Source: Saururus chinensis (lineage: Eukaryota; Streptophyta; Magnoliopsida; Piperales; Saururaceae). From it: 64,000 bases of DNA. Within the stretch, counting starts at the first letter, position 1; each line of letters opens with the position of its first letter. The translations under genes and the position numbers were made by a program. The notes beneath the pieces were generated by a model, which saw nothing but the letters and a program-made list of their open reading frames with translations, did not search any database and was not told the DNA's origin. The DNA lies in the NCBI GenBank assembly GCA_035235625.1, contig CP141140.1, positions 57,493,152 through 57,557,151 on the forward strand. The letters run 5' to 3'. Positions 10,642 through 55,460 of this stretch are shown piece by piece.

Positions 10642-11682
10642 TGTAAGGTCCCTGATTTTTCTACGATTTTTCTTGAGATTTTTTTGCTATTTTTCTGGTC
10701 ATTTTCGGCAGGAAAATGTGACGTTTTAGCGTATGTGCATTTGTGTCTTTTCCCCGTATTTATACCCGTAGAGTCGGGTGTGGGGCTTAGTTGCGGGCCA
10801 CGGGCCTCACTGCGCGCTTACGGTGCAAATTTTGGAGGTTCGACGCGTAACCAGTGGGTTAACGCACGTTGGGGATATGTTTGGAAAAATAAAAGAAAAT
10901 AAAAAAAAAGAGGGATCGGGATCGCGATCCCGATCCCGATCCAATGGTTGGGTGAACAGTGCGCCGCCCCCCCCCTTTTCACCTGTTCACTGTGCCCGGG
11001 CGCCGCCGGCCGCCGGTGGGCCAGTGGGCCGCCGCACCGGCTCTGCCCCGGCCGTGCGACGGCAGGGGAGCTGCCATCCCGGCCCCACGGCCGCTCCGCC
11101 GTCCGCCCCTATTTTCCCGGTTAGACTCTCCCCTCTCTGTGAATTGCGATTCCGCCGCCGCCGTGGGCCGGCGAGGGCCGGCCGGCCGCCCACGGCTCCG
11201 CCCTGGGCCGGCAACGGCGGGAGGACACCCCTCCCAGCCCGGTGAGCCTCCACTCTACCGCCCCGTCCCAATTCCCCCTCTCTGCTCTGTTTTCGCCGGA
11301 GCTGTGTTTGGACGATTTCGTGGCCGCCGGCGGCAAGCCACGGCCGGCTGTGCTCCGTCTGGCCCGGCCTTGGTCCGGCGAAGTGATTGAGCCACCCCTC
11401 CCTGGCCGATTTTGCCTCCGCCCAGCCCACACAATTCCGGCCTCTCCCTTTTTCACTGTTCCGAGCTCCATTCTGCTGGTTCCCTGTGTCAGTCACCATC
11501 GTGGGCTGACAACGGCCATCCAGACCCCGATTCGGCACCGCCTTGATCCAGCGATGGCGAGAAGCCACTCCTCCCGACCGTAGGGGGCCTCTGCACCGCC
11601 GCCCAATGGATGTTTCCCCTGCCCTATTTTCCGCCGGCGATCTATTTTGTGAAACGGAGGCCGCTGGCGATGATCTGTGGCC

Positions 11683-15123: not shown

Positions 15124-16309
15124 GACCCCCATCCAGCCTCGCCTTGGTCCAGTGAAGGGCTGTGGACCACCCTACCCAGCCCGGTTCCATCCCCTCTGCC
15201 GTCCTCTGCTCCGCCCAGTCCGATTTGCGCGTACTGTGGGTGGATTTTCCAGTGGGCTGGCGCCGCCATCGTTGGCGGGTGAGGGTGACTTGACCACCGT
15301 GGGCTCTGCTCCGGCTCGGCGATAGTGAGGGTCAGCCCCACTTGGCCCAATTATACACTCCGCCCGGAATGGGCCGCTTGTCATTGCCCTATACTGTGCG
15401 AGATGCACAGCCGCCTGCACCATGGGTATTGGTTGTGGGTGGCGATCAGCGATGTCGCCGCTTAGATTGGCCACAGCTAAGGGCCTTAGCCCTGTTGGCT
15501 TTTGTGGGCCTTGAGTCGCCTCATTTCAGCCATTTCCCTGCCCTTTGGGCCGTGTGCACATGTAGCCACGCATGTACTTCTGGGTTTAGGCGCCGCATTT
15601 GTGCCGCCTGACCATCGGTTGACTTTGCCACCGAGTGGAGTTGACCACTAGAGCCGTCCTCCACCTCTCCTTTGGTTCTCGAGCATTGCCCCACGTTCTC
15701 CGCCCTTATGTGGGCCTTTGTTGACCGGAATCGTTGCCGTTGGGTGCTGTCCATGGCCGATTTTGACGTCTTGTGGCCGGCTGAGCACGTTTTAGCCACC
15801 GGCCGATCTTTAGAGTGTACACCCTTGACATCTGATCGTACCGCCACATATGTTGGCACGATATTTCTCCCGGCCGCCCTAGTGTGCCGTCGTGGTTCGC
15901 GGGTTTTACCACATTGAGTTCTGACACTCGGTTTGGCAGTGATAGTTCCGGCGCATCCTAAAATCCTCGGGACAGCAGCTCTCTCAGCCAGGTAACGGTT
16001 TTGACCGCCAACTCCGCCGCCGATGCCGCCACCATCGTGTGCTCGCCATCGAACGCCATGACTACGAGGTAGGGGAGCTTTGAACTCGTAAATTCATGAA
16101 GCATGCTTTGAATGAGTAGCAGCATGCTAGGATTGTATGATTCCATGCTTGGATGTTAAGTAATGATCCGATTGCATGATTTGCGTGTAAGCATGATTGT
16201 ATGGTATGATTGATATGCATGAGATGTATGCACGTTTTATGGATGTGGATTATGTATGCGCTAGCAATGGCTAGCAAATATGTCAGTATGCTACGTATGT
16301 GTTATGCAT

Positions 16310-16640
16310 GTGCTAGTGATGGCTAGCGTGCATGTTTGGAGTATGTATGAATGTTTGTGCATGTGCTAGTGATGGCTAGCGTGCACGTTTGAAGTATGTA
16401 TGAATGTGTATGCATGTGCTAGTGATGGCTAGCGTGCATGTTTGAAGTATGTATGAATGTTTGTGCATGTGCTAGTGATGGCTAGCGTGCACGTTTGAAG
16501 TATGTATGAATGTGTATGCATGTGCTAGTGATGGCTAGCGTGCATGTTTGAAGTATGTATGAATGTGTGTGCATGTACTAGTGATGACTAGCATGTACGT
16601 TTGATGTATGCATGTGTTAGTGATGGCTAGCGTGCATGTT
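16310..16640. repeat. Tandem array, 53-bp unit, about 6 copies, in LTR A1
   Basis: The unit starts gtgctagtgatggctagcgt and continues gcatgtttgaagtatgtatg. The first starts are 53 bp apart (16,310 and 16,363). The last copy is more diverged. Confidence 0.85.
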
Positions 16641-17577
16641 TGTAAGTTATGTATGTATGACCGTATGTGTATGTTGTACATATGTGTAAAACATACGTAT
16701 GTATGATGGCATTTTGCCTATGCTTTGGATGTGCGTATGTGTTTGTGGGCAGAGGTATGGGCGATGGACAGTAAGAGGTGACAGAAGCTCTATCTGAATT
16801 TGGATGCGGTTGTGTAAGCGTATGACAGAGGATAAGAGTATGACGGGCAAGGATTAGAATGGATCAGTTTGAGTTGGATTGTATGTTGGGCATTTGTCAG
16901 ATAGTAAGAGTGTTCATAATTGTACAAGCATAACGTACAAATTATGAAGTGAAAAATAAGTATAATAAGTGAGATATAAGTAAGAGGGCAACAACTGGGT
17001 TGGCTCTGAGGAGCGTTATTTGAGGATGTCAGTGTAAGAGGTTTTGGCCATAAGATGGATGGCGAAGTGTAAGACTGTAAGGGTTTGTTGTACAATGAGT
17101 TTTGTCCATGATGTGGACGGGTAAGTGAAGTCTGCTGCCCTGACGAACTTGGGTTTCGGATCGGGCTCAGCTTCAGTTTGACCAGTCGAGGACTGTGAGT
17201 TTGTGTGGCATAATTGTACCGCATAACATACTTAACTCAAACTTGAATTATAAGCACAGCTAATGATAGCGTTGTGAGTTTGAGACCTGAGGGTTAGACG
17301 GATTAAGTTCCGTGTTTGTGTCTGGGCTAATGAGTCGGCCGAGCATTTATTATGTCTTGCCATGGTGTTTATCCTGCGGGATGTTGTCTATGTGCTATAT
17401 AGAGCACCGGACGTCTGATGCTCTGCTGAGAGCGACGTATGTTTCTGATTTGGTCTGTGTGCTGTATAAGCCCAGACGTTTGATGTTCTGTTGAGAGCGT
17501 TGTATGTTTCCGCCCAAGAGTGGCACTGTATGTTTCTGCCCAAGTGGCACTGTATGTTTTTTGCCCAAGAGTGGCAA

Positions 17578-17680
17578 TGGCACTATAAGACCCATTATGG
17601 TGGGCAATTCTCTGGCACTATAAGACCCATTATGGTGGGCAATTCTCTGGCACTATAAGACCCATTATGGTGGGCAACTG
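17578..17680. repeat. Tandem array, 35-bp unit, 3 copies, in LTR A1
   Basis: ggcactataagacccattat followed by ggtgggcaattctct repeats with almost no change. The related LTR A2 has diverged versions near 34.66-34.75 kb. Confidence 0.9.
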
Positions 17681-17904
17681 TATGACCCCTTATGTGTGGG
17701 TGTTTATGTTTGCGCGCTCAGGTAAGTAGTATCATGGATCTACTCTTACCTGTTTGATCCAGTGCCCCATGAGCATTGGTGTGCCTTACCTTCGGAAAAG
17801 TCCATGGCGTCTAGTCACTCCCCAGAGGTTAAGGTGTTGCCCAGTGGCATTCTTTTCCATTTCGACACTGGAGCTTATTAGTTGTAATGAGCTTCAGTGG
17901 TCGT

Positions 17905-18260
17905 TGATATGTGTACGAGTACGACTGTACGAGTGTGAGTACGACTGTATGTGTATGAGCAGGACTGTAAGTGTATGAGCATGAGTAAGACTATAAGAGT
18001 GTGTATGAGCAGGACTGTAAGCGTATGAGTATGAGCACGACTGTAAGAATATGAGTACGATTGTAGGAATATGTTTCTGAGTAAGACAGTAAGTATGATT
18101 TTGTGCAGACTGTACGAGTGAGGTCGTACGAGTCTGATTGTACGAGTAAGGTCGTACATGTATGGGTAAGCTGTATGAGTGAGCATACGATTGTATGAGT
18201 AAGGTCGTATAAGTATGCGTATGTTGTATGAGTATGCATACGGTGGTACGAGTAAGTTGT
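17905..18260. repeat. Degenerate short-period repeats (gtacgagta / gtatgagta) in LTR A1
   Basis: Many imperfect repeats of gtacgagt, gtatgagt and actgtaag. The reverse-complement counterpart in A2 lies near 34.25-34.45 kb. The long open frames here are by-products of the repeat, not genes. Confidence 0.7.
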
Positions 18261-18490
18261 ATGACCCTGAATAAGGGTGTTTGTGTAAGTTGATTGGATA
18301 GTATGACTTTGGCACGATGGTGCCTTCGGTATGTCTGTGGCACGATGGTGCCTTCGGTATGATTGTATGCATTTGAGCATGTTATGATTATGTTATGTTG
18401 ATTGCTTCATGTTTGAGTTGCATGACACATGTGATTATGAACTTATGGAGTTCACCGTTTGGGTTTTTCCCTACTGGGTATTTTCCTACT

Positions 18491-18506
18491 GAGTATGAAA
18501 ATACTC
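18491..18506 (+). repeat. Conserved small inverted repeat in LTR A1 (gagtatgaaaatactc)
   Basis: A perfect short stem just upstream of the accct-type box. Equivalent stems occur in A2 (34,051-34,066), C (19,697-19,710) and B (12,167-12,180). Conservation between otherwise diverged LTRs suggests a role in the LTR, not identified here. Confidence 0.6.
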
Positions 18507-18981
18507 ACCCTACTTCTTTTAGCCCCATTGTTTGGGAGGTTTATGCAGGTTGTGCAGAGAGCTCTTGGAGATGGACGCTCGTTTCAGCGGTGGATTGATT
18601 CCCGTTGACTCAGGTATCTGCTTGACTCTCTGCGAGTTTTGTTTGTGCCACGATCTCCTGTATTGAGTGAGATGAGACTTTAAGATGTTTATTCTGGACT
18701 TTCATTTGGATTAGTCTGTGGACTGTTATGGGACTTGTACTCAGGGATGCTTGAGAATGATTTGTATTTAAAAGTCTATGATCTTAGCAAATTTATTCGT
18801 ACGTGTGTTTTCGAGTAGCGCCTGATGATATTTGATTTGGCAGTACGATGTTTAACCGTATGACGTTTTAAATTATAAAATGGTTATACATGTTTTGATT
18901 TTATCGTTTTGACTCCGATTTATGAAAAAAAAAATTTCTATGAGTTTTAAGAAAAAGGGATAAAAAATCTCGGGCGTTACA

Positions 18982-20965: not shown

Positions 20966-21699
20966 CACAACTTAAAAATAAGATTTAGGATTTTAATATC
21001 TTTAACTTTTTAGGGATTAAAATGGGTCATATAAGGGTAAAATAAGGATAAATTATATAAAATATGGGTCAAACTGTCTTATTTTAAAAGTTCTATAATA
21101 CACTAATTTACTTTATATTATAGTATGATTTTAACTTCTAAAAATACTATATTAACTTAAAACCAATTAAAAGAAATGTGTGGAAAAACTCCCAATTTTT
21201 AAACAAATAGGATCATCAACATCATTATCATAGTATTATAATTGGTATTAAAAAAGTTAATATGTATTATAACACATATTTGAAATTGATCACTTACCCC
21301 TATGTTAACATGGTAGTGCTACCAAAATTGTGCGACCTTAAGGCAGTCGTTGCACACTATATAAGTCATAATGTATATAAATGAATATTATTATTATTAT
21401 TATTATAAATTATATGGTCAAAAGAAAAAAAAATATTTACAAAATATAGGTCGAAAGGAAAAGGATATGAGAGTGACTTCACCCTTAAAACCGGAGACTG
21501 CATGTAAATAGCCAAAAGTGAAGGAGCTTATAAAAAGGTCCAAATATTGAAAGGCTTCCCATCATTTTCCCAATAAGTTACTAAAATATTGTGCTTAAAT
21601 TAATCGACTTAAATATTGTGCTTTAATTAATCAACTTTAATAAATACCGTCAACTTAGTTTAAAACTTTAAACGTTGACGATTAATTTAATCGTTTCTT
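20966..21699. other. AT-rich upstream region of the HAD hydrolase gene
   Basis: No copia or LTR sequence recognised. It includes an (att)n tract at about 21,388-21,406. It probably contains the promoter of the next gene, but I cannot name specific elements beyond the TATA-like site listed separately. Confidence 0.5.
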
Positions 21700-21714: not shown

Positions 21715-23310
21715 CCCCTCTCCCTCTCTGCTTCCTCCTCCGCTTCCTCTCTGCTTTCATCCTCCTTGTACCTCCGTCTCTCTGTTCGAGCATTTCTCTC
21801 TCCTACTTCATCTCCATTTCGTATTCCTTTTCTTTGACTTCTTTCCTCTCGAGTTCCAGACTCGTTCCTGGTATGTTTGTTTCCTCCCCCATTCAATAGT
21901 TCCATAATGCCGCTTGATTACCAATTTTCCTTGTGTTTTTATCAGTTAAAATTGCTTGTTTTCCTTCTTTTTTCTATTTTTTCTTTGTACCCATTTGTCT
22001 TTCAGCCATTAATGTCCTCTCTACGATAACTCGGATTGTCTGGTGGTCGGTTTTTGGCTTTCTGAAGAAGCTTTTGACTTTCATTTTTCTTTGGTCTTTA
22101 TGTTTTTCCTTTGTGAAAGAAGATGGATGCTGGGTTCAGATTGTCTTTTTCTTAGTTGTCTCTGATTGATGAAATTTTGATTCCTACTGAAGAAGAATTA
22201 CTGTGTTGTGAGCCTGGTTGTTGCTAAGACTATGTCTCTTCAGCTCTTGAACCTTAAATTAATGGCTTGAATCTCAGTTATGGTGGTTTTGAAGTTCTGT
22301 TTTCTGTGCACTGGCCTCATAAAAAAGCAAATATCTGCTCATTGAGGAATGTTATGTTCGTAATCACATGAATATGTGTACTTAATACTTAAGCATTTGA
22401 TCTATTATTAGAGCTCTAAAAGAAGTTGACATCTGATTTGAACAACCATACTTACGAAAATGATTTTAACAAATAAAATTGCAAACTTTATTGGGGCATA
22501 CTGTTTATTGAATAACAAACGCTCCCATCATATATCTCCTTCTTATCAGAGTAAACCATTTTATCTTTTTATTTTTCGCTTTCCCATCTTCAAGCGTCTG
22601 GTTGGTATTTGTCTGGATTTGTAGACGAGCTGTAACAAACCGGTTTTGCTTTACAATTTGGTTCTAATATACTAAAAGGCATAATCTTGTGCCACTGTTT
22701 CTTGCCACATATATTTTCCTGGCTCATATTTGGAAGGTACATGTGGCTATGGTACCGTCCTCTAAGAAAGTAGAGTTATGTGCTTATTATGTGGGTTTTC
22801 TTGTTTAGATTCGATGCACTTATTATCTTTTAACTGAGCTTTTTAAAGTACCAGCATGTTTTTTTTATCAGTCAAGCTACCAATATTCATTTTTACAAGG
22901 TAAAATTTTATTTCCAATGATCTTTTTATCTCAAGGCATGTGAATGGATAGCTGGTAATCATGGTTTGAAAATTTTACCCTTTTTTACTTATAGTAGGCT
23001 TCTGTGTTTTCTAAATGCTTTAGTAAAAGGTAGGTTTTCTTTACCATGAAGTCTTTGCTGTATGAAGTGCATTTCATGGAACATACTAACTGGAAGTTAT
23101 AATTGTAGACCACAACCAAGTTGTTAATTGTTTTCTTCAGTAAATTATATAAATACTGGCAATCATTTGTGAGTGTAGAAATCTTAAATCAAGATCAAAT
23201 ATGTCAGGAAATAAACTCTTGCTCATAATTCCTTTTAATTGTTAGCTGATAATCTCGTTTTCCAGCACTGACATTGGCTGTTATCTAATTTCTTAGGTTC
23301 ATAAACTAAT
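21715..23310 (+). other. 5' leader with a 1.4-kb leader intron (HAD hydrolase gene)
   Basis: A pyrimidine-rich leader runs to 21,870 and ends ...ctcgttcctg, followed by a donor gtatgt at 21,871. An acceptor ttcttag at 23,291-23,296 restores 14 bases of leader before the ATG at 23,311. The long first intron is T-rich, as usual for plant introns, and leader introns often raise expression. Short open frames inside it are chance. The boundaries are inferred from splice signals only. Confidence 0.6.
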
Positions 23311-24986
23311 ATGGAGTACACTGACCGATACCAACAGACTGAAAGGCCTAAATACAACTGCCTGCTCTTCGGTAAGTGTCAATCTCATAAAGTTTGCAAC
23401 GAAACTGAAACCAAATACGATTTGTTCTGTTGTTCTCACTGCTTTTTCTCAAATAATTTCAGATCTCGATGATACTCTCTATCCCTTGAGTTCTGGCCTG
23501 GCAACAGAATGCCGTAAAAATATTGAAGGTACAGAAACTCATACGTTATTTTTATTGTGGTTTCTTTTCTCTTTTACCCCTTCTGAACCAATTACATATT
23601 TATTTACTAAGAGAGTGATTTTTTTTTTCTAACTGCTTTTCCAGGGTATATGGTTGAAAAGCTTGGAATAGAGAAGGATAAGATTTTTGATATGGGCAAT
23701 CTTCTCTACAGAAATTATGGGACGACAATGGCGGGTCTCAGGGTATGTTCTGAATATTATTTACTCATGGTTGTCGTTACTCTCTTTTGTAATAGTTATG
23801 TTCTTTTTTATCAGCCGTTTGCTCCTTGTTCACTTTTTTGGCCCCATCTTAACGTTCCTTGTTGTGCAGGCAATCGGCTATGACTTCAATTATGATGAAT
23901 ATCACAGGTGAATTTGCCTTCTCTTTTTCTCTCTCATATTTTCTTTGTATTAATAACAAGAGGCGTAACATTCTTGACTTTATGTTCGACAGTTATGTTC
24001 ATGGAAGGCTGCCCTATGAAAACTTAAAGCCAGATCCTGTCTTGAGGCATCTTCTACTGAATCTTCCATATCGGAAAGTTGTAAGTTGCCTTTGTCCAAA
24101 TTCTGACTATTAGACATATTTGTTTAAAGCACCTTTGTTTTCTAACTGTTCATTTATATTCAGATATTTACAAATGCCGATAAGGTTCATGCTGCTAAAG
24201 TTCTTAGCAGACTTGGTTTGGAGGATTGTTTTGAAGGCATTATATGCTTTGAGACTCTAAACACCCAACAAGGTCCAGATGAATGCGTGGATAGAGAATT
24301 CTCTCCAGCTGATAATGCTGGTAAATTTGACATCCTCGAGTATTTTGCTCGTCCAAATGCTACTTCTGCTGGGCTACCAAAGACTCCAATTCGTTGCAAG
24401 CCATCTGAGGCTGCCATTGAAGATGCCCTTAAAATTGCTGACATCAATCCTCGTAGGACGGTAAGATGTCAAACTTGTATCCAATTTGTTACGTTAATGG
24501 CCTGGAATGTTGGGATAAGATTCAACTCTAGACGTCAAAGTATACTTTTATGAATCTTAGGTAGCTTTTCCTACAATTCTGATTTATTTTCCTTGTCTGG
24601 CATTCAGATATTCTTTGACGACAGTGTGCGGAATATCCAGGCTGGTAAACGCACAGGCCTCCACACTGTGCTAGTAAGTCTTGAAGTTCATTTTTTTCGT
24701 TGTGAAAGCAAGTTAATTTTTCTAAAGATACCTAAATCATTTCAATTGTTTGTTGTGGTCATTTATAACAAAGAATGGAACTAGAGTTCGGCATTAACAA
24801 CTGAATATTACCATTTCAATTTGTCTTCAGGTTGGCACTTCTCATAAGGTAAAAGGTGCAGATTTTGCGTTAGAGAGTATACACAATATCAAAGAAGCAT
24901 TGCCAGAGCTGTGGGAGCAGGAAGAGAAGACATCTGTTAGGTATACTGCAGGCCAGGTTGCTATGGAGACTCCTGTGACAGCGTAG
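23311..24986 (+). CDS. HAD-superfamily hydrolase, SDT1/pyrimidine 5'-nucleotidase type
   Basis: Intact host gene of 289 aa. Coding exons are 23311-23371, 23463-23528, 23645-23742, 23870-23907, 23993-24080, 24164-24460, 24608-24673 and 24831-24986; all introns are GT-AG and the frame stays open. The HAD motifs are complete: motif I DLDDT (D21, D23; nucleophile and acid), motif II FTNA (T120), motif III lysine K196 (RCKPSEAA) and motif IV FFDD (D220, D221). The cap lies between motifs I and II, as in class I HAD enzymes. The sequence resembles the plant family of Arabidopsis At5g02230/At5g59480, related to yeast Sdt1, a nucleotide phosphatase. A soluble cytosolic or nuclear enzyme is expected, since no signal peptide is visible. 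The substrate in plants is not certain, and a phosphatase on nucleotides or small phosphorylated metabolites is inferred. The ATG at 23311 is chosen because it is the first after the leader acceptor and matches the usual family start. Confidence 0.92.
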
Positions 24987-28700: not shown

Positions 28701-29510
28701 ATGGAGAACTATGTCAGCAAGAAAGTTTCTTGTGAGCTTAGTATTACTAGAAGGGAGAACATACTTACTTCCAAAGATACAAATAATGGGAGCAGAAGCA
28801 CTCAATATTGTAAACGGCTTGGATGTAGCACCAGGCTTGACACCAAAGAGGGCAATCAGATAGGTAATTCAGAGAAGGGAAAATATTCCAAACCTTCTTT
28901 CCGTGCTTCAAGTAGCAAGACAGTAGTTGGAAGCTCCTATAGATCATTTTCTAACGCAAATGACTTAAAAAGCTCTAGCAAATATCCCCAGGAAAAAATT
29001 GATTTGTGTCAAAGCAGTAACATGCAGAATCGAACAGATTGTGAAGTTTTAGGGACCTCTGCTTCTTCTTTAGTTGTTTAGGTTCAAAATGTTGAACGTG
29101 GACTTCTTGATGGTATTAGTTCAATGGAAGAGGAAGTACTGAACTCTGCCACGACATCAAATACAACGTCCAAAAATCAAATCACTCCATGTTTGGATGT
29201 GAAAGATCAGGTTGCTTCTATTGGCCCATCCATCAAACAGAATTTTTCTTCCCAAACTTCTGTTGGCACATAAAAAGGATCAGTCTTATTGGGTCCAGAT
29301 ACTGGTTCTCATAACCGTAGCCTCAAGAATTTCCGTTGTACATCACTATCAGATGTGCTTCCTTCTGGCTATACTAACTCAATTTCTACTCCCGCTCCCA
29401 GAGGGACCGATTCTACTAAAAGGAGAGGTCTTCTTGCAGATGGAGAGAGCTCTTCCAGGAGGGGAAAGAGCACGAGCAGGTCATCTACCAAAGGAAGTTC
29501 AATCTTACTC
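28701..29510 (+). pseudogene. N-terminal fragment of a RING-type E3 ubiquitin ligase gene
   Basis: A single frame opening with ATG at 28,701 carries the signature of the N-terminal, low-complexity part of plant RING E3 proteins of the At4g31450/At5g24870 type. The landmarks are an early CKRLGCSTRL (family: NRIGCSGRL), then SKPSFRASSSKTVVGSS (family: SRPSFRSSSSGKEIIGSS), then FRCTSLSDVLPSGYTNS (family: LRCNSISDVIPSGCSSS), and Ser/Arg-rich sequence before the break. In-frame stops at 29,079-29,081 and 29,271-29,273 interrupt it, and the last part continues in another frame. The RING domain and the whole C-terminal half are absent. At about 29,510 it runs straight into MULE transposase tail sequence. 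It is a broken copy, probably duplicated or captured. The match is from memory of the family; the precise parent gene is unknown. Confidence 0.6.
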
Positions 29511-29703
29511 TCGTTAATATTCCTACTTTGAAAAAGCCAGATGAAAAAAATTTAGTATTGCCACTATTAACAAGAAGGCAACCTGGGAGGCCCAAGAAGA
29601 AGAGGATTCTTTCTCTTGGTGAGAAAATAAAAAGAAAAATAAAATGTGGTTGATGTGGTAAACTTGGTCACCACAACAAAAAGTCATGTAAAGAGGCTTT
29701 GTA
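29511..29703 (+). pseudogene. C-terminal tail of a Mutator-like transposase
   Basis: Reads ...RRQPGRPKKKRILSLGEK, then a CCHC knuckle (CGKLGHHNKKSC) preceded by a stop in place of one residue, ending KEAL and a stop at 29,701-29,703. The basic GRPKKKR stretch followed by a CCHC knuckle is the usual end of plant MURA-type transposases; compare the MULE at 48.6 kb, which ends with RPRSVRIR and CGRCKQSGHNSKSC. The upstream catalytic and SWIM domains are missing. It is not derived from the 48.6-kb MULE, since the sequences differ. Confidence 0.65.
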
Positions 29704-30865
29704 GTCCCTCATATATAATGTTTTTTTTCCTACTTTTGTTTTAGTAATACAAAATTTTCAATTTTTATATGCAAATTATAATTTCATATTCAAAAGGCAT
29801 TGCTTAGTTGACATTTTAATTTCCCTTTACATACTAAATCATTAATTTAGTGTTACAGTAAATTTATACTCTGTCAGTATCATAGTATAAATCTACTGTA
29901 ATTCATTTTATGATTTTATATTGAAAAGTCATGTACCACAGCAAATTTATACTTTGTTCTGATTTCATATTGAAAGGTCATGCCTTACAGTAAATTCATA
30001 CTGCTGTAATTCATTTTTTGAAGGGAATGTAAGAAATAGATACAAGCGGGAAAACACAAAGGGTGCTCAGAATGATGAACAGTCTACCTCTTATCAGAAA
30101 CAAAAAAAAAATCAAAAATTCCAATATCATCAAGTGTTGTTTACTTGTTACTTATTGGTATAAATTTCTTGTTTTCTCTGAGCCCAAAGGTTGAAGAAAC
30201 TTATTAAAACTTACAGTTCTGTAAAGGAACCTGTTTATTATGGAGTCACATAACACCACACAAAGAACTCTTTCCATGAGATCTGTAGATTCTTTGATGG
30301 CATTGGATCACTCGTGAGATTAGAATACACTAGCAAGACATGATGTCAGCCTAATGGTTTTCCTTGCCGAACTTCACATAACATTCTAATTCCTCTTTTA
30401 CACAGAAACTTTGATTCGTATACAACATAAAATCAAATGGGCAACACGACCTACATGTTAGTGGCAATGTTCACACTTGTCATGCTCTCTAGTCCAACAC
30501 ACAGTGCAATGAAGCCAGAGTTTAACACGTAAAATAGGCAAATGAGAAGAGTCAACACTAAAGATGTGACCTGAGGGCAAAGCCTAGATCAACGAAGAGT
30601 CCAAAACATTAGCAGTCGGTCAAGTCCAGCAACAAAAAAACTTTCCAATAAAATGGTTCCTGATGGGTTGATAACCCCTATATGTGTTAGCAAATGGTTG
30701 TTATAACAATTTCATCATGAAGTCATGTGTTACAAAATACATTTTACAACACAAAATCAGTTTTCACACCAAGTTGGCTTCTGCACTTGAATCATTCCCC
30801 TATTTGATTCACACAAGAGGCTTCTGGACAGTCATCTAAGTTACTCCTGCATCCACCATAGAACA
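29704..30865. other. Intergenic, diverged forerunners of the tandem array
   Basis: No gene recognised. Around 29,855-30,010 there are three or four loose versions of cagtaaatttatact and attcatttt, resembling the 44-bp unit of the array that follows. Confidence 0.4.
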
Positions 30866-30869
30866 TAAC

Positions 30870-31325
30870 AGTAAATATATACTCTGTTATTTACATCCAC
30901 CAAAAAATAAAATAGTAAATATATACTCTGTTGTTTACATCCACCACAAAGCAGAACAGTAAATATATACTCTGTTATTTACATCCAAAGAACAAAATAG
31001 TAAATATATACTCTATTGTTTACATCCACCACATAACAGAACAGTAAATATATACTCTGTTATTTACATCCACCAAAGAACAAACAGTAAATATATACTC
31101 TGTTGTTTACATCCACCACAAAACAAAATAATAAATATATACTCTGTTATTTACATCCACCAAAGAACAAAACAGTAAATATATACTATGTTGTTTACAT
31201 CCACCACATAACAGAATAGTAAATATATACTCTGTTATTTACATCCACCAAAGAACAAAACAGTAAATATATACTCTATTGTTTACATCCACCACATAAT
31301 AGAACAGTAAATATATACTCTGTTC
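30870..31325. repeat. Tandem array, 44-bp unit, 11 copies in alternating dimers
   Basis: The core agtaaatatatactctgtt is present 11 times. The next base alternates strictly A, G, A, G through the array (attta versus gttta). The spacer alternates between the caccaaagaacaaa type and the caccacataacaga type, so the true repeat unit is a dimer of about 88 bp. The short open frame on the - strand here is repeat-derived. Confidence 0.9.
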
Positions 31326-33531: not shown

Positions 33532-36500
33532 TGTAACACCTGAGATTTTTTTTCACATTTTCTTAAAATTCACAAAAAATTGTTGCAATACAACGGCTGT
33601 AAATTAGAGGAAAACAATGAAATCAAAACCTGTAAAAATAGTTTATAATTAAAAATACTAAACATCAATTTTCCATCCAACTTTATCCTTATTCAGTCCA
33701 ACATCATATGGCCAAAGCAAATATCCTCTAGCGCTACTCAAAAACAAACTTACGACTAAATTACCATGATCATGGATTTTTAAATACAAATAACTCCGAA
33801 ACATCCCTGAGTACAAGTCCGATAAACAGTCCACTGTCTGATCCAAATTAAAAGTCCAGAATACATACACTTTAAATCTTATCTCACCCAATACATTAGA
33901 TCATGGCACAAAATATACTATTATTGAGTCAAATATACCTAAATCAAAAGGGGAAACAATCCACCGCAGAATCGGGCATCCATCTCCAGGAGCTCTCCAA
34001 CACAACCTGTAAAAGCCTCCCGAACAATGGGGCTAAAAAAATAGGGTAATGAGTATTTTCATACTCGGTAGGAAAATACCAAGTAGGGAATCCTAAACAG
34101 TAAACTCAATAAGTTCATAAAATACATGTGTTCATGCAACTCAAACATAAAGCAATCAACGCAATATAATCATATATATCTGCATATAACAATGCATAGC
34201 ACACCAATGAAAGCAAATTTACACAAACACCCTTAATCAGGATCTTACAACTTACTCGTACCATCGTACGCATACTCAATACCTTACACATACTCGTACG
34301 ACCTTACTCGTACAATCTTACACTTACAGTCCTCTCATAATCATATACTTACAGTCGTGCTTAGAAACTTACACTTATATTCTTACTCAGAATCATCATC
34401 TTACAGTCATGCCCATACTCATACTCATACAACTTACAATCGTACTCATACTATCAACCACTGAAGCTCATTACAACTAATAAGCTCTAGCGTCAAAAAA
34501 GAAAAGAATGTCATTGGGGCATCACCTTAACCTCCGGGGAGTGACTAGATGTCATAGACTTTTCCAAAGACAAGGCACACCTATGCTCATGGAGCACAAG
34601 ATCAAACAGGTAAGAGTAGATCCATGATACTACTTACCTAAGCACGCAAACATATACCCACACATAAGGGGTCATACAATTGCCCACACATAAGGGGTCT
34701 TATAGTGCCATACAATTGCCCACCATTATGGGTCTTATAGTGCCAGTGCCACTCTCGGGCAGAAATCATATAATGTCTCTTGGGTGGAATCATACAATGC
34801 CACTCTTGGCCAGGAATCATACAATACTCTCAACAGAGTATTAAACGTCTAGGCATAATATAACACATAGACCAAATTGAAAACATACATACAGTTGCTC
34901 TCAACAGAGCATAAAACGTTTGGTGTCTATATAGCACACAAACAACATCCTACAGGATAAACACCATGGCAAGACATGAGAAATATTTAACCGACTCATT
35001 ATCAGCTAGCTCAAACACAGATTTTAATCCATCGAACCCTCAGGTCTCAAACTGACAACGCTATTATTAGCTTTCTCATAATTCAAGTTTGAATTAAGTA
35101 AATTATGCGGTACAATTATGCCACACAAACACACAGCCCTAGACTGATCAAACCGAAGCTGAGCCCGATCGAAACCCTAGTTCGTCAGGGCAACAGACTT
35201 CACTTACCCGTCCATATCATGATCAACTCACCGTACATCAAATCCTTACATAATCATATAGTCTCCGCCATCCACCTTATGGCCAAAACATCTTACACAT
35301 ATGTCATCAAACTGAGCTAATCACAGTAGATCCATGTTATCATCCTCTAACTTAATACCTCATTTATTATGCTTACTTTTCGCTTCATAATCTGTATGTT
35401 ATGCTTGTACAATTATACAGGCTCTTACTGTCTAATAAACCTTCATAAGGCTCTAAGCCTAAGTCTTCTTATTTACCGAACCCCTAACGTACGCTCCAAA
35501 CCAGACCAAACCAATCCGCTCAAATCCTTGGCTGTCAAACTTACGTCCACCATCTTTTGTCGCATGCCTACACATCCAAATCTACATCCAACTTCGTACC
35601 AACCCTCTGTCATCTCTTATCGCTCATTGCCCAAACTTCTACCGACACATAGCCCACATACGTAACTAACTCACAATTGCTAGCCACCACTAGCATGTCC
35701 ATGAAACATATATGTATCATACTAACATATTCGCTAGCCATTACTAGCGCATACATATTTTGCATACATAAAACACACATACATACATACATATATATAT
35801 ATATATATCTCAATGTGGCATAATTCATTATCTTACATCATGCAAATAAACCATGATTTGATATCCAAACATGGAATCATATAATCCTAGCATGTTGCTA
35901 CTCATTCAAAGCATGTTATTATCAAATTACAAGTTCAAAGCTCCCCTACCTCGTAATCATGATGTTTGATGGCGAGCATACGACGGTGGTGGCGTCAGCG
36001 GCCAAAAGCTTTGCTAGGTTGAGAGAGTTGTTGTCCCAAGGGTTTAAAACAAGCTAAAAATATTCACAGCCAAACGGGGTGTCAGTAGTTAATGCAGCAA
36101 AATCCGCGATCCATGGTAGCACACTACGGGGGGCCGGGAGAAAAGTTGTACCAACGAGTGGCAGGTGTGACTAAAGGTTCAGGTTTCACATTAAAATTTG
36201 ACTAGTGGTTGAACAATACTCAACCAATCACAAGACGTCAAAATTGGCTGTGGACGGCACCCAACGGCATTGATTTTGCCTTCACAGGGGCCCAATTAAG
36301 GGCGAAGGGCATGGGGTGACACTAAAGGACAAAGGAGAGGTGGAGAACTCTAGTGGTCAAATCCAAATGATGGCGGAGCCATCCGACTGTCAGCAGCACC
36401 AAAATCTTATACTACACGTGCAGCTACATGCACAAGCGGCCAAATGGGAGGGGGAGAGGCTAGACAGAGGCGGTCCAAGGCTCATAAAGGGTCCGACAGG

Positions 36501-38211
36501 GCTAAGGCCCTAGTGGTGACCAATCGAAATGGCTACATCGCCGATCACCACCCACAACCAAAACAATAGGAGCAGGCGGTTGTACATCTCTCACAGAGAG
36601 GACGGGGAAGGTTATGGGTCGAGCAAAGGCCGCAAGGCCGTCACTGGCCAAAGCCTATGCAGGTGAACTCGTCCACCTTCAATCAAGGTAGACCATATAG
36701 ATTCTTGCTAGATGTTGCCCAGTACCGACGGCGTAAAATGGGCAAGAGGGGTCAACAGGCAAACATGCTAGTGACACAGAACTAGTTGCGGCTACTAGCC
36801 ACAAGGAAGAGCACGAGTCAGAGGCAATCACACCAGGTTAGGTGGGGCCAAGCTAGGGTGGCCCTTGCCATCATCCCCAAGCCGGGGCAGAACCGAACAA
36901 AGGCTGACCAGCCCAAACCAACCACCAATGACACGATGGCAACCAAAAATAGAGCATGTCGCTCGAATCGACCAAAAAATATCGCATTCCAGACATGGTT
37001 CTAAGCAGAGGCCGAACAAGGCCCAGAGGGGTGGCCCACTAGTGTCACCGGGCCGAGGCAGAGCCAAATGAAGATCCACTAAGTCAAGTCCGTCATCCAG
37101 ACGGTGGCAGTCACAACGTCCAAAACGGATGTAGACCAAAAACACGGGACGACTGAACTGAGCAGAGGAGAGACAGAGGGGACGGAGGCTTAACCGGTCT
37201 AGGTGGGGCCGTTCCCAGGCCATCACCTGGCCGGGGGAGCCCATAGTGGCCAGGTCGCCATCACTAGCCAATGATGGCGGCGACAACTCACTGAAAAATT
37301 AAAACACAGTAAGGTGCAAATCGGACAGGGAGGAGTAGAGGACAGTGTTGGAATCGGGCTAGGTAGGGTAGTCCATAGCCTTCGCCGGACCAAGGCGAGG
37401 CTGGAGGGTGGTCAGGTCAGCCATGTCTCGCCGGCGGCGGCCTCCGTTTCACCAAAATAGCGCACCTATAGAAAAGCAGAGCAGAAGTGGAAAAAAGACT
37501 TAGGCGGCAGAGGAGACGCCCTCTAGGGCCGGGAGGGGTGGCCTCCCACCTTCGTCTGCCCAAGGCGGAGCCTTGGCTGGCCCACGGTGGTGGCCATAGA
37601 TCGCAAAATGGAGGAGACACAAACTGGGAAAAAGGGGTGAACGGGAATGAAAACGGGGAGGTTGAACCAAGTGGCACTGGGCTGAGTGCGGCCAGTCCTC
37701 ACCGTCGCTATGACGGGGCAGAGCCCACAACGGCAGTCCGGTAACCGCCGGCCAGTGGCGGTGATGCTAAAACAATATACAGAGAGGGACAAACTGGGGA
37801 GGAAGGGCGGATTTGGGCTGGGGTGGTGTCAGGGAGGCGGCCTGGCCGTCATCAGGCCAAGGTCGGCAGACTGCCCGCCGATGATGCTCCTCCGGCTTGA
37901 ACAGATGAGAGAGGGGGGTCATGCACTATTCTCTTCCAAAAAGGTCTGGATCAGGCTCGACCAAGCCCGAGCCCGTTTTCCTTTATTTTATTTTCTTTTT
38001 CCCCTTATCCTTTTCTGCACTTCCATTCTCTCTCAATTTTTCACGCCATAAACGTGTGTCCAGGCTCATGGCCTACGACTAACCCATACCTGACTATACG
38101 GGTAAGAATATCATGACCAAATACGCCGAAGCGACATATTTTTCTGTCGAAAATGACCCAAAAAATCCCAAGAAAATTACAAAAAATCGTAGAAAAATCA
38201 AGGGCATTACA
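33532..38211 (-). mobile_element. Long solo LTR A2, same family as A1
   Basis: 4,680 bp, - strand, starting TGTAATGCCCTTGATTTTTC and ending CTCAGGTGTTACA, between agatc duplications in LTR D. It shares with A1 the start, the tactcat/gagtattttcatactc box (34,051-34,066), the degenerate gtacgagt zone (34.25-34.45 kb), the cttatagtgcc repeats (34.66-34.75 kb), the chromovirus-like ends and the GC-rich block (36.1-37.9 kb). No second LTR or coding region is visible, so it appears to be a whole solo LTR. Divergence from A1 is moderate throughout, and both look old. Confidence 0.8.
35790..35808. repeat. (TA)n microsatellite
   Basis: Uninterrupted at-repeat within LTR A2, preceded by acat repeats. 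Confidence 0.9.
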
Positions 38212-48585: not shown

Positions 48586-48594
48586 TATAAAAAA
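48586..48594. repeat. 9-bp MULE target duplication, left copy (tataaaaaa)
   Basis: Exact match to 55,452-55,460 on the other side of the element. Nine bases is the usual target size of Mutator-like transposases. Confidence 0.9.
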
Positions 48595-48877
48595 GGGAAA
48601 TTTATTGAAATAATAAAAAAAAATATAATTACCAAAATATACCACTTTGGGAAATATTTCCCAAAGTGGTGTTCGTTTTTGCCATGCTGGCGCCAACCAA
48701 GCAGCTGGCGCCAGCGTGGCTTTTTTTTATATTTTTTAAGTTGATTTCGTCGTTTAGAACGACAAAATTGGCTTGAATACGATTTCGTCGTTCTAAACGA
48801 TGAAACTACCACACTTGTGTTATTTTGGTCTCAGTCGTGGGAAAGACATTGATTTCGTCGTTCTAAACGACGAAATC
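48595..48877 (+). repeat. Left terminal inverted repeat of the MULE
   Basis: About 283 bp, aligned to the reverse complement of 55,114-55,451. Shared blocks are gggaaatttatt, caaagtggtgttcgttttt, gctggcgccagcgtgg, atattttttaagttgatttc, ttggcttgaatacgatttcg, aaactaccaca and cagtcgtggga. It contains a 28-bp perfect palindrome (48,642-48,669), centred on gggaaatatttccc, and two copies of gctggcgcca. Confidence 0.9.
48743..48877. repeat. Left cluster of TTTCGTCGTT...AACGACGAAA palindromes (3 copies)
   Basis: Copies lie at 48,743-48,768, 48,781-48,806 and 48,851-48,877. Each is an inverted repeat with a 2-4 base centre (ctaa or taga). The third is perfect. Unit spacing varies, so this is not a simple tandem repeat. 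Confidence 0.9.
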
Positions 48878-49617
48878 ATCGTCGTTATATCCGCGACTCC
48901 GCTCCGCCTCCCGTCGCGTTCCAGTGTGTTTTTGCTCCGCCGCTGTTGCCGACGTCTGGACGCTGCCAAACTCGCCGCCGCCGTCCAGCCCGCCTCCGCC
49001 GACCTCATTCCGCCGCTGCCAACTGCAGTCCGCCACCGCCTTGGTCTAGCCTGCCGCTGCCCACGTCGAACCGCTCCCATTTCATTTTTTTGGTATGTGT
49101 TTTTCTATTTTTTTTTATTTACCTGTTTTTTAATTATTGTAATAAATTTTTTATATGTTACATTGAAGAAATATAGTTTTTGTATATTACATTGAAAAAA
49201 TTTGAAGTTTTGAATGTCCTATCATTTAGCCCTAATTTTAGAAGTATTGTTCTAAGTCATTGTGTGTGTTTTTTTGTTTAAGATTATTAAATTGAGATGG
49301 ATTTTTAATTAATGAGTTTTTGTTTTTTAAGATAGCAAGTCTCTCAAATTTTGGAAAATAAGGAGGATTTGAGTTTTTGAACATGTTTTTATATGATATG
49401 TGACATTGTATGCGTTATTACATTAAATGTCTAATTTTATTAATTAGAAAATTTACTCATTAATATAAAGTATTAATGATATGCTTATATACTTGGTAAA
49501 GTTATTAGTTTCTATGCGTATATATTTTTTAAATATATTTGTTAGAGTAGATATTAGTATTAGTTTGCTTAATCTAATATTAATTTTATTTATTATTTAT
49601 GAATTAATTGAATAGAA
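48878..49617 (+). promoter_or_regulatory. Presumed promoter and leader of the MULE transposase
   Basis: A GC-rich stretch (to about 49,080, ctccgccgctgttgcc...) is followed by about 500 bp of T-rich sequence ending at the ATG. The GC-rich part may be leader exon and the T-rich part a leader intron (a ttttttggtatgtgt donor lies near 49,093). No exact signals can be fixed. Confidence 0.4.
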
Positions 49618-52467
49618 ATGGCAAAAGAAATTGTTAGTTTTTTCGTTAACTACAACGGACGCATAGAAGGATTATTAATGAAGAAACCATCTACATTTGA
49701 TGAATTTGAGATGCACGTAGCAAGTAAGGTTGGGTTGGATCGAAGAAGATGGAAAATTACTATCAAATGTAATCTTTCGTCCTATGGATCGAGAATGATA
49801 CTAATGAACATAAATGATGATTCATCAATGGCTTTTATGTTTCACCACTCGCGTCACATAATTTCTTTCGAGTTATTTCTCGAAAAAGAGGCTCGAGTGA
49901 CTAGTGGAAGGCTAAGTAGTTCACATAGGAGCTCTTACAAAAGCTCACAAAGGAGCTCGGATAGAAATGTGAACAATGAAAGTCATATGCAAGTGCCGGT
50001 GGACGACGAAGAAGAGGGAAATTTATCTATGACAGTAGCTTCAAATGAACGTCATAGGTCGTCTGCCCCTATTTACGATGGAAGTGGACCTACTTGGAGG
50101 TAAGGGTTGATTTAGTTGTCAATACGTTTTCAATCTTATTATCCTTTAATGAAAATACGTTTAGCTAAATTTTGAGATTTTGTGTGTAATATGGAAGTTC
50201 TACGACGCATGCACATGAGCCATTTAGCGTTCCAATGTCTCAAGGCGGTGCATGGTATGAAACTCAAAGTTCGATGGGCCTTCATTACCCCTACACGTAT
50301 GTTGGTCATACCGATGCTGGACCATCTAATCAGAGGTGAAATATATATTTATAAATAAATTCAACTTTTTTATGCTTACGAAATTTAATACATATGCGAT
50401 GTTTATATGTAGGGGGGATATGTCTACGGTGAAGATATTGATGAAAATGAGGATAATGAAGGTGAAGATAATATTAACGAAGTAAGTGGAGAAGATTCTG
50501 ATATGAATGTAGAAGGGGTTAGAGGTGAAGAAAGTGCTCAAGAGATGGTTGATGGCGAGGGGGATGATGCGGTAGACAATGTCATTGCTGGGAATGATAT
50601 GAATGTAGATGATGAAGAGACGCCGTGCTGTGAAGTGGAGCCACTTTATGCACACATCACAAATGAGGAGATAGATGCTGCAGTGAATTCTACAATGGAT
50701 TTGGACCAACAAAACGAAAATGAGTTATACGTTGGCCACATCTTTGAGAATAAAGAAGCATTCGTTACAGCCTTGCAGGAGTTTTCCATTCAAAATCATG
50801 TCGAATACAAGGTTGTACGAACAAATCCGGCGGAGTATACAGTGAAGTGCATTGATAGCACTTGCCCTTGGAGAGTGCATGGCTCAATCAAAAGGGGTGG
50901 TGGGTTCTTTAAATTGAAGACGTACAAAGGTGACCACACATGTCGGAATGCCCAGCTTAGCACAGATCATAGGCAATGCAGTGCCTCCTTTATTTCGAAG
51001 GTCATAATGCCCGCTATCCAAGCCGAATTAACTCTCACACCAGGGGATATTATTCAAAGAATGAAGGAGAAGTATCATGTTGACATATAATATAAGAAAG
51101 CATGGGCAGCAAGGAATATGGCGATCAAGGCCATTTATGGAGATTGGGTTGAATCGTATAAATTGTTGCCAATGTACCTAAGGGCGGTGCAAGAAGCCAA
51201 TCCTGACACCTACTACCGCTTAGAGGATGATGCAGTACCTCGTGCAGATGGTGGCACTTGTAGGAGATTTAGACGGTTGTTTTGGGCCTTTGGGCCGTCT
51301 ATAGCTGGGTTTCGACATTGCATCCCTGTGATTGGCGTTGATGCCACTCACTTGTATGGCAGATATCCTGGTGCTCTTATGGCTGCAACGGCTACAGATG
51401 GAAATAATGGGTTATTTCCTCTTGCATTCGGGCTTGTCGGGAAAGAAGACGGAGACAATTGGAAATGGTTTCTAATGGAATTGAGGGATCATGTACTGAT
51501 GGGCATGACGAACATCGCCATTATTTCAGATCGACATAAGGGGCTTCAAAAGGCAGTGCCTGAGGTTCTTCCAGAGCCGGATTACCACCATCGTTATTGC
51601 ATCCGTCACATAAAAGCAAATTTTAAGAAGGAGTTCAAAAATGATAGACTAACGGACTTGATTGGGGCAGCAGCTTGTGCACTCACAATAGAAAAGTTTG
51701 ATGCTAAAATGGACTTGATTGGTCAAGAGAGTCCTAGGGCAAAACATCTCCTCTTAGGAGGAGAATTGCATCCTGCACAGTGGTCCCTTACACACGGTGG
51801 TTTTATGACATTTGGCATGACGACTACAAATATGGCTGAAAGTTTAAATAGCGTCTTGAAGGGGGCACGAGGGTTACCCATGCAGGCTTTAGTGTCAGCT
51901 ATCTTTTATCGGCTCATAAAATTTTTTGTTAAACGATCTTCTGCCGCCTCTGCCATAGTCACCCCATATACTCCTAGAGTGGAAGCCATATTGAGAGAGC
52001 AAACAAGAAAAATTGGGGAGTATATAGTTAATAGGATCAACAGGAGTCAGTACAAAGTGACATCAATTCATGCCCGCAAGGTTATGGTAAATGTTGCGAT
52101 GCATACTTGTACATGCAACATCCCTCACGTTTATGGTTATCCTTGCTCGCACCTTATCGCAGTGTGGGCAAAGCAGCGGGAGCCAATCAATGCATCACTA
52201 TTTTACACATCTTCTACTTATAGAAATGTGTACTCTGCAGAATTTTATTCTCCTCATGGTCGGGAGTATTGGGAGAGGGATATACCGTTTGTGTTATACC
52301 CACCGATAGCAACAAGGCAACCCGGTCGCCCACGGTCTGTTCGCATTAGGAATACCATGGACCGCAGAACAATGGAAAGAGATGGTAGAGGAGGATATAA
52401 ATGCGGGAGGTGTAAACAAAGTGGGCATAATAGTAAATCATGTAGAAACCCTCCTGTTGATTGGTAA
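49618..52467 (+). pseudogene. MURA-type MULE transposase, interrupted
   Basis: Exon 1 (49618-50099) encodes a PB1-like N-terminus (MAKEIVSFFVNYNGR...). Exon 2 (50199-50335) is a short linker. Exon 3 (from about 50,413) encodes an acidic stretch, the MuDR zinc-binding domain (about 50,738-50,955; CPWRVHGS...GDHTC), the DDE-type core with first Asp in GVDATHL (51,340-51,342) and second in ISDRHKGL (51,529-51,531), a SWIM finger (52,108-52,152; CTCN...CSH) and a CCHC knuckle (52,402-52,443). A TAA at 51,088-51,090 interrupts an otherwise open frame between MuDR and core. The exon 2/3 join with the only visible AG acceptor does not keep frame and lies in a run of six G, so that border is uncertain. 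In the cell such proteins bind element ends and cut and join DNA. Not functional as read. Confidence 0.9.
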
Positions 52468-52563
52468 ACATATAATCAACCTCTGTATTTATTATATTTT
52501 TTTAGTTACGTACGCATGTATTCCTTACGATTAATGATATGATCTTCATCTTTCATAGATCAT

Positions 52564-54904
52564 ATGGATCATGCAGAGCCTTGTTACAGGCCAGGCCCGA
52601 GTGACGCTTCTTTACTCGTAAAGCAAGAGTCACATAGGTCTGCTGCTATTTGGGGAGGAGAGGTATGATAACTTTTTTTAAAATTTGTTTCATTATTTTT
52701 TGGTTAATATAATACGACATGTTATAATTTTAAAATTTATTATAGGACCCCGGGTGCCTTGAGTGCACCGAACATTTTAAATACCTCCGTCATTGGCCTA
52801 TAGATGAGCGTATATTACCTTATATCGAGCGAGCAGGATTCGGCCATTTCATTCATCTACAGTATGTTCGTCTCGATCGGCCTCTATTGACGGCTCTTGT
52901 TGAGAGATGGAGGAGGGAGACACAGACGTTTCATTTGTCATATGGAGAGATGTCCATCACGCTCATGGATGTGGCAGTTCTATTAGGACTCCGTATTGAT
53001 GGACGTCCAGTGACAGGTACTACAGGAGGAGCTCATATGGATATATTACTTAGACTTCTTGGTAGAGCTCCTCCTCCTACAGTGATGCGTGGTAGCCGAG
53101 TGAGCCTATGATGGCTATTACAGGAGTTTCGTGAGCTCCCAGCCGATGCTACAGAGATAGTTATCGAGCAGCATGCACGAGCCTATATATTGCATTTACT
53201 TGGAGCCACTATATTTGCGGATACCACGAGCAGCCACGTGCATGTTTCGTATCTCTCTCTCCTTCACGACTTTGACATGGCTGACACTTATTCATGGGGC
53301 AGTGCTACTCTCGCATTCTTATACCGAGAGTTAGGAAAGGCATGCCAGGCCATTACCTCAGGGATTGCGGGTTGTCTTACTCTTCTTCAGGTAAATAATT
53401 GTGTAACTTTACTTAGAGTTTTAGTCACGTATAATTTTTTATTTCTAATATTTGTTATCACTATTTTATGACATAGTTATGGTCGTGGGAGCACTTACAC
53501 ATCGGCCGACCAACTGCTGAGATGGGTCGCTTGGTCGAGGGTGCTCCATTAGGGGCGAGGTAGGTTGTATTTATGTTTACCACATTACTTTTTGTGCAAC
53601 GTTTTATGAACATATGCTGAACTCATTTCTTAAATTTAACTCCTTAAGGTGGAATGTTCGGAAGAAGAGAACCGAAAATCCACTAGGAGTCCTCCGTTTA
53701 TATAGAGGGGAGTTAGACCACCAGCGGCCATACCAGGTAATTTTATTGTCGTGTTGAACTTTTTTATATAATGATTTTAAAAAAATTTGTCATTATTTAA
53801 ACTAACTTATCTTTATATATTATATAGATTATTTGGCAGCCGTACTCGGAGGACTTATTCGCTGTGATACCTCCACTCTACACTGACGGTCGAGAGGTGT
53901 GGCTTTCTCGAACCCCTCTCATATGTTATGGGATTATAGAGATGTATGTGCCAGATCGTGTAATGCTCCAGTTTAACCTGGAGCAAGGGGTCCCACCTTC
54001 TACTGTCGAGTTTGTCCATCGCATCACTCGACAGGGCCGCCATATTACCGACTGGGCTATATATCATGCGTCGTATATTGCTCAATGGGAGGATAGGAGA
54101 TCCACTATTATTAGAGGGGAGCTGGCTACGACATTGCGAGATGTTCATAGTACTTATATGCACTGGTATTTACCGATTACACGGCGATATATTTTACCGC
54201 GCGATGATGTAGAGGAGATGACATATCAGCCTAGGGGAGCATATGAGGCAGCTCTAGTAAGTACAACTTTGTTAATTAAGGCATATATTATTTTCTTATT
54301 TTATGTTAATTATTTATCTAATATTTAATTTATTTTTTTATAGCTTCGTCAGCTTCGACATACTAAAGCATATTTGAGTGATGCACTTGTCACCTGTATT
54401 TCGCGCAAGGACTTAGCAGCAGCATGTGAGTCGGTGATTAGATCGTCTAATGATGTCCTTCGTAGCTTGCCACTACTTCATTCGGTGATCACGGATGTTT
54501 ATCGAGATTATCCTGTCGACGAGGCCGCTCAGACGCAGCCGATGCACTCTTCATGCCCTGATATTCCATCATCATCAGCAGCATATAGCTCTCCTACAAG
54601 TTCATCATTTCCAGATACTACACATGTCACTCAGCTAGATCCGATTTTATATTATAGACGACATCGGTCAGCTCGTATTGTACCATCTATTACTTATGCT
54701 TAGCCGGAGCCCGAGCAGGAGCCTGACATGGAGTCGCAGCCGGAGCCCTAGCCCGAGCCTGAGCCCCAGCCCCAGTCGGAGCCCCAGCCCGAGCCCTAGT
54801 TGGAGCCAGAGTTAGAGCCACAGCCAGAGGTAGATCATGAGGAGCTCGTACACCCCCGTCGAGGACGAGGGCGAGGGCGAGGACGAGGACGTAGGAGATT
54901 ATAA
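52564..54904 (+). pseudogene. Plant mobile domain (PMD, MAIN-like) gene inside the MULE
   Basis: Six exons: 52564-52662, 52746-53390, 53477-53559, 53649-53736, 53828-54256 and 54344-54904. All junctions are GT-AG, and their sum is 1,905 bp, exactly in frame (634 residues). The protein has the PMD signature: HWPIDERILPYIERAGFGHF, then TFHLSYGEMSITLMDVAVLLGLRIDG, then YLSLLHDF, and YSWGSATLAFLYRELGKACQ. The tail is rich in Pro-Glu/Gln repeats and ends in an RGRGRGRGR stretch, a likely nucleic-acid-binding tail. Four in-frame stops occur at 53,109, 54,701, 54,749 and 54,797. Host relatives MAIN and MAIL1 act in gene expression and transposon silencing, while many PMD genes sit in transposons. 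The role in the MULE is unknown; it could help mobility or counter silencing. PMD identification rests on recalled family patterns. Confidence 0.85.
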
Positions 54905-55113
54905 TATTACTTGTGATGTATTATATTTGTTATTCGTATATGATGTACTGTACTTATATTTGTTATGGTGATATTCGTGATAGTGATATTTGTTATGGGT
55001 GGAATGAATGAAGTCGTGCATATTTATGTGTGTTGTGTTCTGTGTTTTGAATGAATGAATAGGGACATGTGATAAAATTAGTTTTAAATAGTAATTTTAA
55101 AAAAATTTAAGCT
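54905..55113. other. 3' flank of the PMD gene within the MULE
   Basis: AT-rich, with repeated gtgatattcgtgata-like words. No clear poly(A) signal stands out. Confidence 0.4.
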
Positions 55114-55320
55114 GATTTCGTCGTTTAGAACGACAAAATCAGTGTCCTCCCACGACCGAGCCCGAAATATGTGGTAGTTTCGTCGTTCAGAACGACGAAA
55201 TCAGCTTAAGTTGATTTTGTCGTTCTGAACGACGAAACCGGGTCAAGTAATATAAGGTTTCGTCGTTTAGAACGACGAAATCGTATTCAAGCCAATTTCG
55301 TTGTTCTAAACAACGAAATC
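55114..55320. repeat. Right cluster of TTTCGTCGTT...AACGACGAAA palindromes (5 copies)
   Basis: Copies lie at 55,114-55,140, 55,177-55,202, 55,213-55,238, 55,257-55,282 and 55,295-55,320. The cluster has two more copies than the left end, which explains why the right inverted repeat is about 55 bp longer. Confidence 0.9.
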
Positions 55321-55451
55321 AACTTAAAAAATATAAAAAAAAAAACCACGCTGGCGCCAGCGTGGTAAAAACGAACACCACTTTGAAAAATATTTTCCAA
55401 AATGATATATTTTAATAATTATTTTATTATTATTATTTTAATAAATTTCCC
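55114..55451 (-). repeat. Right terminal inverted repeat of the MULE
   Basis: About 338 bp, the inverted partner of 48,595-48,877. It contains a perfect 20-bp palindrome centred on ggcgcc at 55,346-55,365. Confidence 0.9.
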
Positions 55452-55460
55452 TATAAAAAA
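55452..55460. repeat. 9-bp MULE target duplication, right copy (tataaaaaa)
   Basis: Identical to 48,586-48,594. Confidence 0.9.

Follow-up and report, generated by a model that had tools for sequence, protein, structure and literature searches.

A likely decayed copy of a plant MULE in Saururus chinensis carries a six-exon plant mobile domain gene downstream of its transposase gene

Mutator-like elements (MULEs) of plants that carry a plant mobile domain (PMD) have already been published, and the element analyzed here, at positions 48595–55451 of a 64-kb stretch of Saururus chinensis DNA (64,000 nucleotides of contig CP141140.1; hereafter the window), is an example of this known kind. What we say of earlier work here and below refers to particular passages of the papers cited. 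Ikeda 2017 (PMC5418596) traces the first description of the PMD to a rice MULE; the same paper reported that members of the PMD-C clade occur as fusions with MULE transposases in several grasses and in Amborella, inferred two captures, and already speculated about an anti-silencing role for the PMDs of MULEs. Table 1 of Dupeyron 2019 (PMC6446971), in passages that do not spell out the abbreviation 'PMD', gives a PMD for the majority of members in the groups MULE-Monocots, MDR and MUDRAVI2, an antisense PMD in most of MUDR and in MuDR-9_OS and MULE-Solanaceae_1, and 'PMD and/or DUF' for half of the members under the VANDAL entry, with no PMD for other plant groups or for the MUDRAVI sub-group. 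An initial annotation of the locus, made from its sequence, had likewise taken it as known that PMD genes travel with plant transposons. Eudicots have mainly genic PMD-C members, and MAIN and MAIL1 have been linked to PP7L and to transposon silencing (Nicolau 2020, PMC7156037); PMD genes of tea give rise to phased small RNAs (PMC10673657). The term 'PMD' does not occur in the passages at hand of a 2026 review of gene capture (PMC13317346), and our literature search, made without the name of the host, found no published account of this particular element.

The element spans 6857 bp and is real and bounded within the window; we consider it likely that it is a plant MULE copy in decay, one that has terminal inverted repeats and belongs to the kind known to carry a PMD. 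An exact 9-bp direct copy of the target site, TATAAAAAA, stands immediately to its left (48586–48594) and again immediately to its right (55452–55460), neither copy having a strand, and this length lies within the 8–11 bp of MULE target copies. The initial annotation had noted both these copies and the long inverted ends, and both were upheld. Random pairs of 9-mers were identical at a frequency of 1.5e-5 when drawn from some 2 kb of sequence flanking the element to the left and right, and none of 200000 pairs drawn within approximately 200 bp was identical. TATAAAAAA is of low complexity, and in the window as a whole it was found eight times on the plus strand and nine times as the complement.

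Long terminal inverted repeats, as in the TIR groups of MULEs, lie at 48595–48890 (left end, plus strand) and 55105–55451 (right end, minus strand), and both start, reading inwards, with GGGAAATTTATT. A gapped alignment of the 296 bp of the left end with the complement of the 347 bp of the right end gave 243 identical bases among 265 aligned, with 22 mismatches (17 of them transitions) and 10 gap events. The score of this end-to-end alignment was 339, against a maximum of 52.6 among 286 random pairs of window segments. The right end is longer by a net 51 bp; the main difference between the two is an approximately 80-bp stretch, absent from the left end, that contains additional palindrome sequence. 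Outside the element, 37 short matches to the ends were found in the window, the best of them 27 bp long at 21385–21411 (E = 5.5e-4).

The ends share a CpG-rich palindrome of 23 bp, TTTCGTCGTTCTAAACGACGAAA, which occurs eight times at up to two mismatches, always within the ends: three copies are in the left end (starting at 48745, 48783 and 48853) and five in the right end (starting at 55116, 55178, 55215, 55258 and 55296). No further copy was found in the window even when up to five mismatches were allowed. Across the eight palindromes, 6 of the 32 CpG sites are altered, every change being C to T or G to A, and beyond these only 2 central bases differ. These losses match the decay of methylated CpG and would fit a silenced copy. 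The CpG ratio is 1.66 and 2.42 in the two ends versus 0.26 and 0.49 in the flanks; we did not use these high values as proof of low methylation because the repeated motif itself has four CpGs. The palindromes are the obvious candidate sites for recognition by a transposase.

The first of two genes inside the element is a MULE transposase gene on the plus strand (49618–52467), with a last exon at approximately 50413–52467 and an uncertain start. Its frames matched the Pfam profiles MULE (PF10551, E = 2.6e-19), DBD_Tnp_Mut (PF03108, E = 1.3e-11), Transposase_mut (PF00872, E = 7.6e-7) and SWIM (PF04434, E = 2e-4); the last exon holds DBD_Tnp_Mut, MULE and SWIM as well as a sub-threshold zinc knuckle match, and a match to the NCBIfam IS256 transposase (E = 3.8e-9) was under the cut-off of that model. 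Codons for D, D and E are present at 51340, 51529 and 51838, and these we take to be the DDE triad. The element has a MULE/MuDR transposase with this presumed DDE motif, and the presence of transposase domains sets it outside the definition of a Pack-MULE, which has no transposase gene. The gene is no longer whole: a TAA at 51088–51090 breaks the frame. In the most obvious splice model the joint between exons 2 and 3 (50335/50413) is also one base off frame; alternative choices of GT and AG preserve the frame in 63 combinations, and a frame break at this joint is not proven.

Upstream of the transposase gene, a G+C-rich block (0.648) at 48880–49095 on the plus strand might be a transcript leader, and the AT-rich stretch that follows 49095 and reaches to approximately 49612 could be a leader intron (GTATGT...AATAG). 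No solved structure was related to the transposase by sequence. The fold predicted for exon 1 (160 aa, from a single sequence) had a mean pLDDT of 51; its initial strand-strand-helix-strand arrangement is no more than a hint of a PB1-like domain. Elsewhere in the window a match to exon 1 had an E value of 0.36, which we took as chance. At 29552–29692, a 53-residue match (37.7%, E = 7.6e-4) to the transposase, at its C-terminal zinc-knuckle end, contains a stop and is probably the remnant of another MULE; open frames at 28701–29078 and 29203–29514 adjoin it, and neither has a Pfam match.

The second gene is a PMD gene, also on the plus strand (52564–54904), with its ATG at 52564 and a final TAA at 54902–54904. 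Six exons lie at 52564–52662, 52746–53390, 53477–53559, 53649–53736, 53828–54256 and 54344–54904 (99, 645, 83, 88, 429 and 561 nt), separated by GT..AG introns of 83–91 nt with a G+C content of 0.14–0.29, versus 0.48–0.59 in the exons. Among 729 combinations of reading phases, the set implied by the splice sites had the fewest stops (five, including the final TAA), the runner-up having six. Moreover, the core of 1701 nt has no frame-breaking indel, and its 567 codons contain one stop, compared to a mean of 28 and a minimum of 16 in 500 shuffles. The spliced core, with an X at the stop, covered positions 1–346 of the 347 of the plant mobile domain profile PF10536 at 301.7 bits (E = 9.6e-90), for which the Pfam cut-off is 34.9 bits. 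This cut-off was also passed singly by the piece before the stop, the piece after the stop and exon 5 (the three single pieces scored 85.5, 70.8 and 76.9 bits).

The one stop of the core is a TGA at 53109–53111, in exon 2 and within the domain. Further stops lie in the tail (54701–54904), which consists of Pro-Glu repeats with three TAGs in 68 codons, the first at 54701, followed by an intact Arg-Gly run and the final TAA. Three TAGs exceed what simulated decay produced in 68 codons (mean 0.09–0.46); the loss of the tail may be older, or the TAG at 54701 may be the working stop. Two tandem genes on one strand and a six-exon PMD gene with exon lengths that add up in frame had both been proposed in the initial annotation, and both hold, though with inner stops. 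Those stops, in the transposase as in the PMD, had been overlooked when the element was called complete: its anatomy (bounds, ends and both genes) deserves the term, its reading frames do not.

Could the PMD gene have arrived with an element nested in the MULE, for instance a Ty3/gypsy retroelement that had an additional PMD frame? A PMD has been found in 57% of Ogre elements (PMC6317226). Against such an origin stands the division of the gene over six exons. The only direct repeats of at least 60 bases that flank the PMD are 61-nt pieces of the element's own ends that bear the palindrome, and the gene is placed 96 nt past the transposase stop and approximately 200 bp ahead of the right inverted end. 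We therefore disfavor this origin and regard it as extremely improbable.

The short distance between the two genes raises another matter, namely whether they are spliced into one. The gap (52468–52563, plus strand) has an intron-like length of 96 nt and a G+C content of 0.26 and so resembles the introns of the PMD gene; removing it could yield a transposase-PMD fusion such as those in Ikeda 2017 (PMC5418596). A GTAAAC donor that starts at 52464, where the final sense codon of the transposase has its last base, makes an open, in-frame joint with an acceptor ending at 52589 (CTTGTTACAG). However, 16 pairs of GT and AG gave in-frame joints, so that a single joint is weak evidence, and the acceptor at 52558 cannot be joined in frame to the 52464 donor, although five more upstream donors do keep the frame with it. 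An in-frame ATG at 52564 also belongs to the PMD itself, whose frame is separate from that of the transposase, with a stop between the two. A fusion is thus unlikely in our estimation, and we keep two separate genes as the default.

The density of stops is similar in the two genes, with one in the 567 PMD codons and one in the 684 codons that make up the transposase's last exon, and in a simple simulation both counts fit unconstrained change of 0.01–0.045 per site. This equal apparent decay suggests that both genes were probably whole at insertion. In the sequence of events that we propose, the element would have been moved by a DDE transposase of its own type, which would recognize the ends. 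At that last transposition the PMD would have been whole, introns included, and hence a complete accessory gene rather than a captured fragment. Its most likely role, though still a rather doubtful one, would be interference by the PMD protein with the MAIN/MAIL silencing machinery of the host to the benefit of the element. Later, this copy would have been silenced, would have begun to decay and would have lost CpG in its ends.

Alternatively, the PMD may be a passenger, a host gene picked up recently by transduplication and of no use to the MULE. MULEs are known to acquire host sequence (PMC6446971), their PMDs sit in the mainly genic PMD-C clade, with capture from hosts inferred (PMC5418596), and in this copy the PMD and the transposase decay alike, each having one stop over a similar length. 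Against a passenger stands the presence of a whole domain with its introns, on the transposase strand and 96 nt downstream of the transposase. Moreover, in several MULE groups 'PMD' is given for the majority of members (PMC6446971 Table 1), which favors retention over a one-off passenger; this argument is limited in that many of the listed PMDs are antisense, some groups have none, and only two captures were inferred by Ikeda. On balance, we hold a passenger to be somewhat unlikely.

Several observations weigh against a PMD that works for the element. An intact PMD frame at insertion is equally expected after a recent capture, and the similar decay of the two genes does not show selection on the PMD. 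The gene of this copy is unable to yield a full protein, a single copy of the element was observed, and no computed result shows an effect of the PMD on silencing. A structure search with the PMD found no related solved structure (the best match, a TNF ligand at E = 0.013, was taken as chance), so that the fold gives no clue to function. Nor do the ends supply a date: their Kimura two-parameter (K2P) divergence is 0.089, and we dropped the dating of the insertion by this value because MULE ends need not match at insertion. Given the stops in both genes, this copy alone does not decide between a working part and a passenger. The initial annotation had called the element a good test case for that question; a MULE with a full-length PMD gene was found, but a single copy with stops in both genes makes this overstated.

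Other searches were negative. The PMD had no match elsewhere in the window up to an E value of 1. Rfam gave no match at gathering thresholds. Scans of viral contigs with the palindrome, the transposase open reading frame, the first 154 PMD residues and a degenerate PMD motif, and scans of prokaryote contigs with 114 residues of PMD exons 3–5 and the degenerate PMD motif, found no relative, an absence that means little in such collections.

The rest of the window holds repeats and other coding remains. Segments at 15394–18793 and 33758–36596 are in opposite orientation, 73–90% alike in pieces over approximately 3 kb, and probably represent two facing copies of one repeat family. A tandem array at 30850–31324 has a 44-bp unit in approximately 11 copies, with higher-order periods of 88 and 260 bp. 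SH3-like and RVT_2 matches in two frames at 9755–10899 are probable pieces of a Ty1/copia-type retroelement. Open frames at 23297–24550 are likely a host gene, presumably encoding a HAD-type hydrolase; a Pfam match for 24146–24550 was sub-threshold (E = 0.0092).

Among known MULE accessory proteins, VANC is an anti-silencing protein that binds short repeated motifs and has a DUF1985 domain, with tandem peptide repeats in its variable parts (PMC5735166). Like a VANDAL element with VANC (Hosaka 2017, PMC5735166), the element described here combines a MULE, an accessory protein and short repeated noncoding motifs; here the repeats are palindromes in the ends. The PMD piece at 53112–53390 matched DUF1985 (PF09331) partially at E = 0.0017 and 18.8 bits, below the cut-off of 35.1 bits, and the whole PMD core did so at E = 0.036 and 14.5 bits, likewise below it; no match to DUF287 was found in the element. 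In the same search, presumed chance matches of other pieces of the element reached E = 0.026 (Rad1) and E = 0.04 (porphobilinogen deaminase). The whole-core value is no better than these, and only the one-piece value may serve as a weak lead. A PMD with a repeat-bearing tail beside a repeated end motif parallels VANC, as a parallel and not a demonstration. It is very unlikely, in our judgment, that the MULE PMD is a VANC-like anti-silencing factor that shares DUF1985 fold ancestry, binds the eightfold palindrome and keeps the ends of the active element unmethylated; such a link would, if true, bring together two accessory-gene systems known from plant MULEs.

Whether transposons turn PMD genes against the silencing pathway of MAIN and MAIL1 is a question raised by Ikeda 2017 (PMC5418596). 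With clear ends, a PMD on the transposase strand and a repeated candidate binding motif, the present element supplies exact probes for intact relatives in its host. Like the PMD-carrying plant MULEs described so far (PMC5418596; groups 42 and 45–50 of PMC6446971 Table 1), it has a SWIM-type transposase and a PMD inside the element, and it resembles them in its 9-bp target copies, where these are given, and in its inverted ends, which most listed groups possess. By contrast with the fusion proteins of Ikeda 2017 (PMC5418596), the PMD reads here as a separate downstream gene, and it lies on the same strand as the transposase, whereas many PMDs in the table of Dupeyron (PMC6446971) are antisense. 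The PF10536 domain is held in common with the host PMD-C proteins MAIN, MAIL1 and MAIL2 (PMC5418596), from which this PMD differs in being transposon-borne and in having stops. Pack-MULEs, too, have MULE ends that surround host-like sequence, but what they carry is fragments, their transposase gene having been lost (PMC6446971), while the present element contains both a transposase gene and an entire domain.

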